The translations under genes and the position numbers were made by a program. Positions 28,502 to 33,530 of a DNA stretch of 64,000 bases are shown piece by piece; the first letter of the stretch is position 1; every line of letters starts with the position of its first letter. The notes under the pieces are model-generated. The model saw only the letters and a program-made list of their open reading frames with translations, was not told the origin of the DNA and searched no databases. Source of the DNA: an uncultured Eubacteriales bacterium (GTDB lineage: Bacteria > Bacillota > Clostridia > Peptostreptococcales > Anaerovoracaceae); assembly GCA_902763505.1 (NCBI GenBank), contig CACWSO010000001.1, forward strand, positions 1 to 64,000, read 5' to 3'.

Positions 28502-29644
28502 ATGAACTTTTCACTGACGAAGGAACAAGAATTCGTAAGAAAAATGGTACGCGATTTTGCCGAGACCGAAGTTGAACCTCTTGCTGCAGACATCGACGCG
28601 GAACACAGATTCCCGGAAGAAACTGTAGAAAAGATGGCTAAATACGGATTGCTCGGTGTGCCATTCCCAACTGAGTATGGCGGAGCAGGCGGAGATCACA
28701 TTTCCTACGCAATTACTGTTGAAGAACTTTCAAAGAAGTGCGCATCAACAGGCGTTATCTGTTCAGCTCACACTTCACTGTGCTGCTGGCCTATTTTCAA
28801 CTGGGGAACTGAAGAGCAGAAGAGAAAGTATCTGCCGGATCTTCTCTCAGGAAAGAAGCTGGGCGCATTCGGACTGACTGAGCCAAACGCTGGTACAGAC
28901 GCATCCGGACAGCAGACAAGAGCGGTTGACGGCGGTGACTGCTGGATCCTCGATGGAGCTAAGGTATTCATCACCAACGGCGGATATGCTGACGTATTCG
29001 TAGTAATGGCTATGACTGACAAGTCAAAGGGCAACCACGGAATCAGCTCATTCATCGTAGAGAAGGGCGACCCTGGTTTCTCAATTGGTAAGACAGAGGA
29101 TAAGATGGGTATCTGCGCATCCTCAACTACAGAGCTGATTTTCCAGGATTGCAGAATTCCTAAGGACAGACTTCTGGCAGAAGTTGGCGAAGGATTCAAG
29201 GTTGCAATGTCAACACTGGACGGCGGCCGTATCGGTATCGCTTCACAGGCACTGGGTATCGCTCAGGGCGCACTCGATGTAACTGTTGAGTACATGAAGG
29301 CTAGAAAGCAGTTCGGAAAGAGCCTGTCAAAGTTCCAGGCACTTCAGTTCGTAGTAGCTGATCTGGAAACTCAGATCCAGGCTGCAAGACTTCTGGTTTA
29401 CAGAGCTGCAGACATGAAGGACAAGCATCTGCCTTATGGACCTGCTGCTGCAATGGCTAAGCTGTTTGCTGCTGAGACTGCAATGCACGTAACCACCAAG
29501 TGCGTACAGCTCCACGGTGGATATGGCTACACTAAGGATTATCCGGTAGAGAGAATGATGAGAGACGCTAAGATTACTGAGATCTATGAAGGTACTTCAG
29601 AAGTTCAGAGAATGGTAATCGCTGCATCAGTTCTTGGTAAATAA
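28502..29644 (+). CDS. Short-chain acyl-CoA dehydrogenase (butyryl-CoA dehydrogenase type)
   Basis: FAD enzyme that, with EtfBA, reduces an enoyl-CoA such as crotonyl-CoA using NADH while reducing ferredoxin (bifurcation). The 380-residue protein has FGLTEPNAGTDASG (about residues 122-135), FITNGGYAD (about 155-163) and the C-terminal catalytic glutamate in ITEIYEGTSEVQR (about 358-370). It is followed by etfB and a ferredoxin-fused etfA. The gene order also resembles the caffeyl-CoA reductase carCDE of Acetobacterium, so the acyl substrate is not certain. Confidence 0.94.
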   Translation: MNFSLTKEQEFVRKMVRDFAETEVEPLAADIDAEHRFPEETVEKMAKYGLLGVPFPTEYGGAGGDHISYAITVEELSKKCASTGVICSAHTSLCCWPIFNWGTEEQKRKYLPDLLSGKKLGAFGLTEPNAGTDASGQQTRAVDGGDCWILDGAKVFITNGGYADVFVVMAMTDKSKGNHGISSFIVEKGDPGFSIGKTEDKMGICASSTTELIFQDCRIPKDRLLAEVGEGFKVAMSTLDGGRIGIASQALGIAQGALDVTVEYMKARKQFGKSLSKFQALQFVVADLETQIQAARLLVYRAADMKDKHLPYGPAAAMAKLFAAETAMHVTTKCVQLHGGYGYTKDYPVERMMRDAKITEIYEGTSEVQRMVIAASVLGK

Positions 29645-29664
29645 GCAAATAGGAGGAATTACAA

Positions 29665-30471
29665 ATGGCATTTAATATTATTGTATGTGCAAAGCAGGTT
29701 CCTGATACTAACGTTATCAAGATCAACCCTAAGACTGGTACACTGATCAGAGACGGCGTTCCAAGTATCCTGAACAACGACGATGCCAATGCTCTCGAAG
29801 AAGCATTGAAGATAAAAGACAAGTTTGATGACGTACATATCACAGTCATCTCAATGGGACCTCCTCAGGCTAACGATCTTCTGTTCGAATGTATCGCTAA
29901 GGGCGCTGATGAAGGTATCCTCGTATCTGACAGAGCAGTAGGCGGATCAGATACATGGGCTACTTCCAACACTCTGGAAGCTGCAGTAAGAAGATGGGTC
30001 AAGGACAACGGCGACTACGACCTGATCTTTACTGGACGTCAGGCTATCGACGGAGATACTGCACAGGTTGGACCACAGCTGGCTGAGAAGCTGGGACTGC
30101 CTCAGGTATCATACGTTGAGGAATTCGAAATTGCTGACGACAGAAAGTCAGTAACAGTTAAGAGACAGCTGGAAGACGGATATGAACTGATCGAAGTTCC
30201 TCTCCCTTGCCTGCTGACTACAATCAAAGAGCTGAACACTCCGAGATATATGACGATTGCCGGTATCTATGGCGAGAAAGAAATGAAAGTTTGGAACGCT
30301 AAGGATATCGAAGTTGACCTGACTAAGGTAGGTCTTGAAGCGTCACCTACAAACGTATTCAGATCATTCACACCTGCTCCAAAAGAACCGGGCGTTAAAA
30401 TTGAAGGCGACACCGAAAATGAACAGGCTAAGAACTTACTGATCAAGCTTAAGGGTAAGCACATAATCTAA
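29665..30471 (+). CDS. etfB: Electron transfer flavoprotein beta subunit
   Basis: A 268-residue EtfB. It begins NIIVCAKQVPDTNVIKI and contains the nucleotide-site region FTGRQAIDGDTAQVGPQLAE (about residues 122-141) and the C-terminal IKELNTPRYM motif. In bifurcating Etfs this subunit binds the FAD that splits electrons from NADH. It lies between the dehydrogenase and etfA with short gaps, so the three form one operon. Confidence 0.96.
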   Translation: MAFNIIVCAKQVPDTNVIKINPKTGTLIRDGVPSILNNDDANALEEALKIKDKFDDVHITVISMGPPQANDLLFECIAKGADEGILVSDRAVGGSDTWATSNTLEAAVRRWVKDNGDYDLIFTGRQAIDGDTAQVGPQLAEKLGLPQVSYVEEFEIADDRKSVTVKRQLEDGYELIEVPLPCLLTTIKELNTPRYMTIAGIYGEKEMKVWNAKDIEVDLTKVGLEASPTNVFRSFTPAPKEPGVKIEGDTENEQAKNLLIKLKGKHII

Positions 30472-30489
30472 GAGGAGGAGGAAATTTAA

Positions 30490-31797
30490 ATGGCTATTAA
30501 CATTATAAAAGAAAAATGTATTGGATGCGGACAGTGCTTCAAGAGCTGCCCTAAGGATGCATTTTATTTCGAACCATACGATGGCAACAAGCTCGGAAAA
30601 GTTGCTGCTATCGGACCTAGCTGCGATTTCTGTAATCAGTGTCTGACTTCATGTAGGTTCGGTGCTATCGAAGAAAAGAAGATTGAAGTACAGGCTGACC
30701 TGGGCGATTACAAGCACGTTTGGGTATATGCTGAGCAGAGAGACGGCAAACTCATGAACGTAGCGCTCGAGCTGATCGGCGAAGGCCACAGACTGGCTAA
30801 GGAAATCAGCGATGATACAGAAGTATGCGCAGTTCTGATTGGATCAGAAGAAGACATCGCTCCTCTGGCTGCAGAGTGCTTCAAGTATGGTGCAGAGAAG
30901 GTTTACAAGATTGCAAGCCCTGTTCTGCAGCACTACACAACTGATGGATACACTTATGCACTGAAGGAAGCTATCGATGAGTACAAGCCTGAGATCGTTC
31001 TCTACGGCGCAACTCACATCGGTCGTGACTTCGCTCCAAGAATCGCTGCAAGATGCAACACTGGTCTGACTGCAGACTGCACAAGACTGGACGTTAAGGT
31101 ATCAAGCTACATCGAGTATGCTAAGAAGAACACAACTCTGGATACTTCCACACTGGATCCTAACGACCCATCAACTGGAATCAAGCAGACTCGTCCTGCA
31201 TTCGGTGGTAACCTGATGGCTACTATCATCTGCCCGAGAACCAGACCTCAGATGTCAACAGTTCGTCCTGGCGTAATGCAGAAGAGAGAGCCGGTTGAAG
31301 GCGCAACTGGTGAGATCATCGAAGTTAAGACTACTGTTTCAGAAGACGACATCAACATCAAGATCAAGGACGTTGTTAAGTCCGCTAAGGAAATGGTATC
31401 CCTGACTGACGCTGACATCATCTGCTCAGGCGGAAGAGGACTCGGCGATCCATCAGGATTCGAGCTCATCAAGAAGTTCGCTGACAAGGTTGGCGGAGTT
31501 GTAGGTTCATCCCGTGCAGCAGTAGATGCTGGCTGGATCGATCACTCACACCAGGTTGGACAGACTGGTACAACAGTTAAGCCTAAGATCTACTTCGCAT
31601 GTGGTATCTCCGGCGCTATCCAGCACCTGGCAGGAATGCAGACTTCAGAGTGCATCGTTGCAATCAACAAGGATTCAGATGCTCCTATCTTCGACGTTGC
31701 TGACTACGGTATCGTAGGCGACCTGTACAAGGTAGTTCCTGAAATCATTGCTGAGTGGGACAATGCAGAAGCTCTGTATGATGCTTCAACAAAATAA
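30490..31797 (+). CDS. etfA: Electron transfer flavoprotein alpha subunit with N-terminal ferredoxin domain
   Basis: A 435-residue EtfA. Residues 1-60 form a two-cluster ferredoxin: [12 protein letters not shown] and [11 protein letters not shown]. The FAD-binding C-terminal domain follows, with [11 protein letters not shown] (about 316-326), SRAAVDAGW and [20 protein letters not shown] (about 355-374). The extra clusters, also found in CarE of Acetobacterium, can pass electrons between the bifurcating flavin and soluble ferredoxin. AGGAGGAGG precedes the ATG. Confidence 0.96.
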
Positions 31798-31847: not shown

Positions 31848-31884
31848 CAAAGGATGCTGCAATTAGCAGCATCCTTTATTTTAT
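31848..31884 (+). terminator. Rho-independent terminator of the etf operon
   Basis: AAAGGATGCTGC (31849-31860) and GCAGCATCCTTT (31866-31877) form a perfect 12-bp stem followed by ATTTTAT. Confidence 0.92.
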
Positions 31885-31890
31885 GTATTT

Positions 31891-32085
31891 GATTGCCGGA
31901 GAGTGTCGCGGCTTAAGTCCTCGTCGCGGACAACTGCAACGACTCGTTCACATGAAACAGAACGCCAGGCAAACTCGCAGCTGAAGCTGCTCAAACATGC
32001 CTGACGTTTCGCTGTTTCATATATTCACTTCGTCCGCAGTTGCAGCCGCTCCTGCGGAAACAGCTGCGACACTCTCCGGCAAATC
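31891..32085 (+). ncRNA. Structured element A (candidate non-coding RNA)
   Basis: A 195-base rod-shaped fold. Closing helix: GCCGGAGAGTGTCGC (31895-31909) with its exact complement (32066-32080). Further helices: CAACTGC/GCAGTTG (31931-31937 with 32036-32042), ATGAAACAG/CTGTTTCAT (31952-31960 with 32012-32020), CAGGCA/TGCCTG (31966-31971 with 31998-32003) and the tip GCAGC/GCTGC (31977-31981 with 31986-31990). Internal loops carry GTCCTCGTCGCGGACAA (31917-31933) and GCTCCTGCGGA (32048-32058), both repeated in element B. I cannot assign a known RNA class. A structured DNA repeat is the alternative. Confidence 0.6.
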
Positions 32086-32146
32086 CAACAATAAAACAAA
32101 GGAATGCTGGAATTGAGTTTTTCGTGTGATTTGAGCGTGCAGGGGA

Positions 32147-32327
32147 GTGCCTAAGGCGATATCCGCAGGAGCAGGAACAATCATATGTGAAATGAACTTA
32201 GAAAACAAAAATCCCTGACACTGTTTGAGCGGTGTAACCGCGAGTTTGTCAGGGATTTTATGTTTTCTGTGAATGGAACATTTATGATTGTCTGCGACGA
32301 GGACGTAGCCGTGGTACTGTACGGCAC
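32147..32327 (-). ncRNA. Structured element B (candidate non-coding RNA, homologue of A)
   Basis: Read on the minus strand it repeats the plan of element A. It has GTCCTCGTCGCAGACAA (32288-32304, 16/17 identical), the tip CAAACTCGC-hairpin-GCTCAAACA (32222-32248) and GCTCCTGCGGA (32162-32172, identical). The stems between them differ in sequence but still pair: 32177-32185 with 32283-32291, 32200-32207 with 32261-32268, 32208-32220 with 32247-32259, and the tip 32229-32233 with 32237-32241. The closing helix is weaker than in A. It lies directly downstream of the alanine dehydrogenase gene on the same strand. Confidence 0.55.
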
Positions 32328-32357: not shown

Positions 32358-33530
32358 TTATTTGCTGAATTCCGGATAGAAGTTGTCGGATCTGGTGAGC
32401 GTTGGTTTTGGTGCCGGATCCAGCTTCTGATCTTCAATGCCAAGGATCTTCTCAGCAGGTACCCATGGACGGTTCTGAATGCCGCTTGTCTCTTCATGGG
32501 TGAGGTAACCGCGGTATGCCGTCAGACTTCTTCTCAGGAAGCCGTCTCTCACACATGCTTCGGCCACACCGTTCTTGATGATGTTTCTGAAGTGTGGGAG
32601 CACAGATGCTGCATAGGAAACGGATGTTGATCCTGCAATTGCACCAGGGATATTGCTGACGCAGTAGTGGACAACGCCTTCCTCGATGTAGGTTGGATTC
32701 TCATGGGTCGTTTCATGGAATGTTTCAATGCATCCATAGTCGTTACTGATGTCTACAATAACGGAACCGCGTTTCATGGAAGCGACCATCGCACGATCGA
32801 TCATGTACTCTGTCGCATTCTTTGGCCAGCGTACACAGTTGATAACCAGATCTGTGGACGGCAGGATGTTCTGCAGATTGACGTGGTTTGAGATGATGGT
32901 TGATATTTTGCCGTTGTATTTGCTGCTGATATCGCGGAGAACGCCTACATTTACGTCAGCGACAGTTACCTGACATCCTATGTTGACAAGAACTTCGATG
33001 GCAGCTTTGCCGACGATGCCGCATCCGCAGACGACTGCTCTCACACCGGGTGCACCGGCAAGCCCGGAAGCGAATTTTCCGCTTCCGCCGTTGGTGCTCA
33101 TCATTGACCACAGACCCATGAATGCGCCTGCTTTACCGGCAGCTTCACAATTCGGAGAACCGAATCTATGGGAATCTTCAGCGGTGAAAGCGATGACCTT
33201 TTTCTCTAACAGGGCATCAACTTCTTCTTTGTGAGCAGCAGGGTGGATGCAGGTGTAAATAATCTGACCTTCTCTCAGGTAATCGTATTCACTTGCCTCG
33301 ATTTCCTTTACCTTGGCAATAAAGTCGCATTCCTTCCAGATGGTTTCATTATCTGCCACGACGGTTGCTCCTGCTTTTGCGTACTCGTCATCATCGAAGC
33401 CTGCCTTGAATCCTGCGCCGCTGCAAACGAATACTTCGTTGCCGTCTGCCACGAGGATGCCGACTTCCGTAGGTGTCGCAATGACACGGAATTCACCGTT
33501 TTTGATGTCTTTCAGTATTCCGAATTTCAT
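32358..33530 (-). CDS. ald: Alanine dehydrogenase / PNT family enzyme
   Basis: NAD-dependent enzyme of the alanine dehydrogenase and pyridine nucleotide transhydrogenase family, probably interconverting alanine with pyruvate and ammonia. The 390-residue protein has the substrate-side FIAKVKEIEASEY (about residues 69-81), IHPAAHK (about 95-101), the Rossmann motif VVCGCGIVGKAAIEV (about 165-179) and a late VSNIPGAIAGSTSVSYA (about 291-307). It diverges from textbook Ald in several motifs, so another amino-acid dehydrogenase of the family is possible. GGAGGAG precedes the ATG, and TATAAT on the minus strand lies about 7 bases upstream of that site. Confidence 0.8.
   Translation of the reverse strand: MKFGILKDIKNGEFRVIATPTEVGILVADGNEVFVCSGAGFKAGFDDDEYAKAGATVVADNETIWKECDFIAKVKEIEASEYDYLREGQIIYTCIHPAAHKEEVDALLEKKVIAFTAEDSHRFGSPNCEAAGKAGAFMGLWSMMSTNGGSGKFASGLAGAPGVRAVVCGCGIVGKAAIEVLVNIGCQVTVADVNVGVLRDISSKYNGKISTIISNHVNLQNILPSTDLVINCVRWPKNATEYMIDRAMVASMKRGSVIVDISNDYGCIETFHETTHENPTYIEEGVVHYCVSNIPGAIAGSTSVSYAASVLPHFRNIIKNGVAEACVRDGFLRRSLTAYRGYLTHEETSGIQNRPWVPAEKILGIEDQKLDPAPKPTLTRSDNFYPEFSK

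Follow-up and report, generated by a model that had tools for sequence, protein, structure and literature searches.

REPs favour the 3′ ends of genes. A REP is 20-40 bp long and usually has a GTAG or CGTC tag (PMC3733652). Bacterial MITEs include RUP, NEMIS, Bcr1, ERIC and EFAR (PMC3733652). Some of the TIRs of TIRYT (TnpA-Y1 subclass 2.1) are self-complementary and many are dimeric (PMC3733652).

Here we compare with these systems a pair of structured elements, A and B, in a 64,000-nucleotide stretch of DNA (the window, meaning the whole stretch analysed). Like REP, BIME and REPIN sequences and their RAYT (TnpA-REP) partners, the elements are dispersed intergenic hairpins with no evident coding capacity, many of them in inverted pairs. 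Unlike REPs, hairpins of 20-40 bp, they have a core of 144 positions plus arms, combine a steady tip and steady boxes with variable stems, and showed no adjoining Y1 gene. One box contains CGTC; a conserved foot corresponding to the REP tag was not seen by eye in 101 arm pairs. With bacterial MITEs they share small size, non-coding sequence, a position adjoining genes and robust folds, and inverted terminal motifs mark the paired units in two other clostridial MAGs; they differ in that the stems turn over fully compensated, the tip spans many phyla and the window copies have no recognised terminal repeat. A GGGGACGG-like sequence, seen by eye in the arms of some copies of genome G183, resembles TIRYT repeats, but the same kind of inspection found no general GGGGWSAS feature and the Y1 loci examined had no convincing tip. 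Bidirectional intrinsic terminators likewise have a GC-rich helix and a T tract on both strands, but here the loop holds a conserved tip and the stem is nested within further helices. A search of the open-access literature by sequence strings and by REP and dispersed-hairpin terms found no description of the family.

The preliminary description of this DNA, made without database searches, had presented A (31891-32085, plus strand) and B (32147-32327, minus strand) as homologous structured elements in inverted orientation, with nearly identical loops and with helices that differ and still pair. Re-reading the letters confirmed sequence and coordinates. Against dinucleotide shuffles, A folds at z -9.75 and B at z -7.62, and none of 200 shuffles equalled either. 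Pairwise alignment of A with B gave near-identical loops and stems that are rewritten yet still pair, and the inverted repeats I1, I2, I4 and I5 of the window reflect the same common loops and altered stems; the homologous inverted pair is real. The window has two occurrences of the tip pattern CAAACTCGC N(2-25) GCTCAAACA, whereas 100 shuffles have none, and the exact tip has two places only in the window's genome (G000), namely A and B.

The placement of A was right and its limits were too narrow: the whole palindrome, recovered as inverted repeat I1, spans 31872-32103, with arms at 31872-31913 and 32062-32103. On its better-folding strand (minus), the core of A at 31916-32059 matches the covariance model introduced below with 146 bits; alignment places conserved boxes at both of its ends, the 3′ box CCGCGACGAGGACT at 31916-31929 and the 5′ box TTCCGCAGGAGCGG at 32046-32059. 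The tip of A, CAAACTCGC-stem-GCTCAAACA when read on the plus strand, lies at 31970-31997 (minus) and, together with the innermost long helix (AACGCCAGGC / GCCTGACGTT, 31961-32008, assigned to neither strand), makes up a terminator-like core, recognised by eye and included in the T-tract count below; this is helix 8 of the 27-copy alignment and helix 10 of the 104-match alignment. In B, the core occupies 32161-32305 on the plus strand (142 bits) and the tip 32222-32248 (plus; the pattern is read on the minus strand). The innermost helix of B with its tip (32208-32259, neither strand; inverted repeat I4) has 13 bp, AAAATCCCTGACA / TGTCAGGGATTTT, and is followed by a T tract on the minus strand.

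The inverted orientation of the two elements stands, and their plus and minus assignment probably has to be reversed. The complementary strand folds better than the strand originally named both for A (-142.1 vs -124.2 kcal/mol) and for B (-105.6 vs -81.4 kcal/mol), as it does in 34 of 44 box-defined matches, with one tie and nine opposite cases (three of the 44, L019, L032 and L056, resemble chance matches). Wobble counts by strand gave 55 A-C and 22 G-T on the originally named strand in the many-phyla tip set described below, omitting 11 loci (seven repeats of other loci and four judged non-elements), locus-end copies and weak-arm copies; they were even (17 to 17) in the core, and in the outer arms came to 85 G-T and 68 A-C on the complement. 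With moderate confidence, the element strand is probably the complement of the one first named.

A and B lie between an electron transfer flavoprotein alpha-like (etfA-like) gene upstream (30490-31797, plus strand; its best NCBIfam score, under the cut-off, is for the electron transfer subunit beta of acryloyl-CoA reductase) and a convergent alanine dehydrogenase-like gene (32358-33530, minus strand, also below its NCBIfam cut-off); the preliminary description had placed both copies downstream of redox or amino-acid genes, facing each other. The left arm of A runs into the intrinsic-terminator-like hairpin of the etfA-like gene (31849-31877, plus strand; inverted-repeat and terminator scans), the single hit of a strict terminator scan (loop 3-8) over the window. 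The region 28502-31797 holds an acryloyl-CoA-reductase-like set comprising acyl-CoA dehydrogenase, EtfB and a ferredoxin-fused EtfA, all with scores below the curated cut-offs.

At gathering score, Rfam recognised nothing in the window except a 5S ribosomal RNA at 1-93, outside A and B and cut by the window start; the 11 weak matches at E values up to 5 all fell under the gathering score. In 16 relative loci the same threshold returned one tRNA and nothing else. Since Rfam has no match for the elements, we reject a known RNA family.

A covariance model was built on 27 copies, with a core of 144 positions beyond which the arms extend for a median of 61 and 65 nt. It matched in at least 34 of 49 genus genomes and at least 24 of 148 family genomes, the window's genome being included in both counts, with at least six copies in the window's genome and a maximum of at least 35 (G163); the counts are minima because stricter filters applied in searches that covered more than 40 genomes. 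The alternative of a local duplicated palindrome, raised in the preliminary description, is excluded by the copies in these 34 genomes. In total, 104 matches from 87 loci reached E values up to 1e-5. In their alignment, which is fitted to the model and hence biased towards it, double changes occur at 40 of 41 pairs, 96.6% of cells are paired and covariation is 0.700 vs 0.224 when shuffled; the unfitted 27-copy alignment gave 35 of 41 pairs, 94.6% and 0.647 vs 0.235. Copies and pairs in these counts are not independent, because they are partly orthologous. The structure, suggested at the outset to be a selected RNA or single-stranded DNA, is supported as selected, has homologues elsewhere and matches no Rfam family; between the two molecules the evidence leans to DNA, as set out below. 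A second inner-hairpin type occurs within the same boxes at L199, L214, L222, L223, L227, L229, L230, L231, L232 (G163), L207 and L165:1219-1347, where loops like GTGGTGAGAA and TTCGAACAGG replace the standard tip in most rows.

Copies of the genus set lie at the 3′ ends of genes: of 78 placed units, 46 are convergent, 32 tandem and none divergent, and three more lie at contig edges (simple longest-ORF gene calls; 101 of 104 matches, the three cut by contig ends being omitted). All 20 two-copy units have the (-,+) inverted arrangement on the better-folding strand, as an inverted-pair REP system would have it. In 50 of 58 single copies the originally named strand is co-directional with the upstream gene, so that the gene-co-directional strand is not the better-folding one. 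Close pairs in two other clostridial MAGs are arranged as in the genus in 13 of 13 cases, with none for the reversed-pattern control; the Lachnospiraceae MAG SUG1049 contributes 40 exact tips and 11 close pairs and the Eubacteriales MAG S36M_St_18 13 tips and two close pairs. Pontibacter indicus has 24 exact tips and no close pair. Inverted pairing is not universal in the family, where three genomes (G069, G004 and G006) have same-direction neighbours 75, 244 and 72 nt apart.

At least four T within the 8 nt after the innermost helix were found in 77 of 96 copies on one strand and 73 of 96 on the other (96 of the 104 matches were kept for this count), with means of 4.67 and 4.40 vs 1.85 over all windows. 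With T tracts on both sides, the innermost helix looks like a putative bidirectional terminator, and the arms of genus copies, inspected by eye, often run into neighbouring terminator-like hairpins.

Orthologous sites reveal both presence and absence of the element. We searched for the etfA-like gene in the 49 genus genomes and examined its downstream region in 30 loci, one of which was too short. A and B are both present in G157 and G153, and G181 carries B together with a copy that has the same boxes and a different inner hairpin. The element is absent from G167, whose etfA-like protein is 98% identical, with 130 nt to the aligned part of the next gene; the covariance model found no match anywhere in that genome. 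Apparent half remnants were seen in G177 and G175, and most remaining loci have a different neighbour gene.

At an orthologous site between convergent genes, G157, G153 and G181 carry the element in spacers of 246-249 nt, G000 and G167 have a plain terminator in spacers of 71 and 70 nt, and G150 has another terminator in a spacer of 92 nt. The stem of the G000 and G167 terminator, CCCGGAG (AAACCCGGAG), equals the inner helix of G153. In G000 the element consensus is echoed in the left flank as well, and we read this site as an element that was probably reduced to a terminator. At a second site the element is present in G000, G153 and G157, and G167, G150 and G154 have a plain terminator with an unrelated stem; the corresponding spacer of G181 (L417) is 533 nt long and full of short repeats, e.g. 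ATGTACAAGA and GGAACGAGAAC.

Twelve paired units from SUG1049 and S36M_St_18 were aligned to look at unit borders. A terminal motif, GTATGTGCACC (an 18-mer, up to three mismatches allowed), stands inverted at both outer ends of 11 of the 12 units, about 160-185 nt outside the tip at either end; the twelfth is cut by a contig end. Beyond GTATGTGCACC the flanks differ among units, but a further AATTCCTGTTT recurs at several ends, so that the motif marks the unit end only approximately. At the right end of L462 the terminal motif is doubled in tandem, 31 bases apart. Over the loci spanning A and B, the genus copies do not contain the terminal motif of the two MAGs, and several genus copies are vertically inherited; for these two reasons the genus copies may be domesticated. 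The flanks at element-free sites are too different for placing the ends, and a target-site duplication was not established.

A Y1 transposase was considered as the partner and rejected. None of 44 Y1 loci (30 from 29 tip-bearing genomes, 22 of them with a Y1 match, and 14 further family regions) had a convincing tip, two weak partial matches aside, and Y1 genes are about equally common in tip-bearing family genomes (8 of 17) and in the others (53 of 131). The window's own genome has a Y1 transposase-like gene with an internal stop, split in two matches (G000:C23:14715-15073). Among ORFs lying within 3 kb of a tip at loci L001-L150, no mobility-like gene recurred, and the largest ORF groups there have eight members and look by eye like common families. 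A plasmid or phage element was likewise rejected, since collections of both gave no blastn 'distant' match. Among IMG/VR contigs, the exact tip motif turned up in a single one (L150:4126-4148), and the terminal motif of the two MAGs in none.

The tip reaches well beyond the genus. In the family, 17 of 148 genomes contain AAACTCGC..GCTCAAAC, the highest count being 18 copies; by eye, the matches fetched mostly sit at the end of a long hairpin, with few exceptions such as L013 and L022. The reversed control for this shorter pattern is uninformative, since the pattern is almost a mirror image of itself and its reversed form mostly finds the motif again (18 in G006 either way), and the reversed control for the longer pattern found none. 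Genome contigs contain at least 117 stretches of CAAACTCGC N(2-25) GCTCAAACAGTG, compared with a rough chance expectation of about 3 for 257 billion bases read on both strands, with 24 gap lengths, 21 fixed bases and an even base composition. Among the matches listed are Clostridia, Bacteroidota (e.g. Pontibacter), Gastranaerophilales, several proteobacterial groups, Nitrospirales and two candidate phyla, and at least four Watson-Crick pairs directly flank the tip in 77 of 109 distinct copies with full flanks. This many-phyla set comprises 13 convergent, 52 tandem and 8 divergent copies (8 of 73 placed) and 36 at edges, with one inverted and one same-direction neighbour pair. Its tandem copies have no strand bias (27 to 25), and T tracts are not enriched (2.23 and 2.40 vs 2.14). 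Because the set has neither T-tract enrichment nor strand bias and includes these divergent copies, terminator core and placement are features of the clade. In Pontibacter (L035, L041, L068, L091, L104, L109, L144 and others) CTTGATTTTTTTGCTTACTTTTTTCATCAAGGAAAAAAGTAA or a close form comes after the tip hairpin, by eye a possible H-type pseudoknot; tips in Rheinheimera (L070) and in a Burkholderiales MAG (L107) have a similar GGTTACTT nearby. It is conceivable, though rather doubtful, that a superfamily of mobile DNA hairpins recognised by their structure extends across the bacteria, with the tip CAAACTCGC-hairpin-GCTCAAACAGTG as its mark and a widespread, uncharacterised single-strand nuclease or transposase as its means of spread, in which stems would be free to change since the enzyme would read loops and shape, and to which clades would add modules of their own (the terminator core here, a pseudoknot-like TTACTTTTTT in Pontibacter and relatives).

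A different account, in which the element is a structured non-coding RNA or a 3′-UTR element selected as RNA and its stems are kept by ordinary compensatory mutation, draws on the strong covariation, the conserved internal loops, tandem G-A-like loops seen by eye on the better-folding strand in the alignments, and a 3′-end placement co-directional with the upstream gene. The composition of the stems points the other way: by one method, the G-T share of standard pairs is 1.6% for the 27 copies, 1.9% for the second inner type (11 copies) and 16% for 30 genus RNase P RNAs, and it is 2.2% in 97 rows kept of the 104 in the larger set. Departures from the Watson-Crick consensus are balanced in the 27 copies (17 G-T, 17 A-C), whereas RNase P has 80 and 10; in the model-fitted larger set G-T exceeds A-C (84 vs 29), which accords with an RNA. 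So does the comparison of orthologues (20 pairwise comparisons, 1364 pair cells), where 54 single G-T and 20 single A-C changes accompany 100 double Watson-Crick changes, 36 other single and 19 other double changes; recent change therefore does include wobble steps. At one site G153 agrees with G000 and G157 in outer arm and boxes and has an inner hairpin of another type, and since the flanks align throughout (91% over 2.3 kb) this exchange happened in place. Replication template switching can create and mend stems (PMC8794818), and we infer that upkeep of the arms is at least partly a DNA process. The low G-T share, the block exchange and the unit-like borders in relatives are why we lean to DNA; with the gene-co-directional strand folding less well and with copies dispersed, paired and missing at orthologous sites, selection as RNA is unlikely.

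We consider it quite unlikely, too, that the elements are elaborated bidirectional terminators alone, that is, gene-end hairpins grown by template switching without mobile ancestry. Such an origin would suit the T tracts that flank the inner helix on either side, the arms that by eye merge into adjoining terminator-like hairpins, the plain terminators of relatives at the same sites and the stem making and mending by template switching (PMC8794818), but boxes and tip that recur at numerous unrelated sites and in other genera, and the tip in other phyla, need a common source, and the paired units of the two other MAGs have borders. Membership of a classical REP/RAYT system is very unlikely, although REPs have the same gene-end placement. 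Dispersed intergenic hairpins in inverted pairs resemble REPINs (PMC6006769) and BIMEs (PMC2817692), but the element is far larger than the 20-40 bp given for REPs (PMC3733652), and the 44 Y1 loci have no convincing tip alongside, where REPs of a RAYT would flank the Y1 gene.

The explanation we favour, with restrained confidence, is that A and B, in inverted arrangement, are two copies of a mobile DNA hairpin of REPIN/MITE-like kind, dispersed and non-autonomous, with a place at gene ends and a terminator-like core. It is based on the structure, the covariation, the copy number, the one-way pairing within the genus set, the 3′-end placement, the T tracts, presence and absence at orthologous sites and the apparently sharp borders with inverted terminal motifs in the two MAGs. 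The unit would be a non-coding hairpin of 200-300 nt with conserved boxes and tip, whose innermost helix may act as a bidirectional intrinsic terminator. Copies would be spread in trans by a structure-recognising enzyme, in the manner of REPIN/BIME or MITE sequences, and would persist at the 3′ ends of genes. Stems could drift and still pair if hairpin template switching lets each arm correct the other, or recombination with other copies may exchange whole blocks between the conserved boxes, while recognition would hold the boxes and tip themselves. Loss of arms and tip, as one site suggests, may leave a plain terminator.

The family would add to the REP/MITE world an uncatalogued class of interspersed palindromes whose tip reaches many phyla. 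It offers a clean case for the open question of what keeps long stems paired as their sequence changes: with dozens of related genomes carrying orthologous as well as paralogous copies, template switching, gene conversion and selection can be told apart. Should transcription stop at the innermost helix, the element would also supply convergent genes with ready-made bidirectional terminators.
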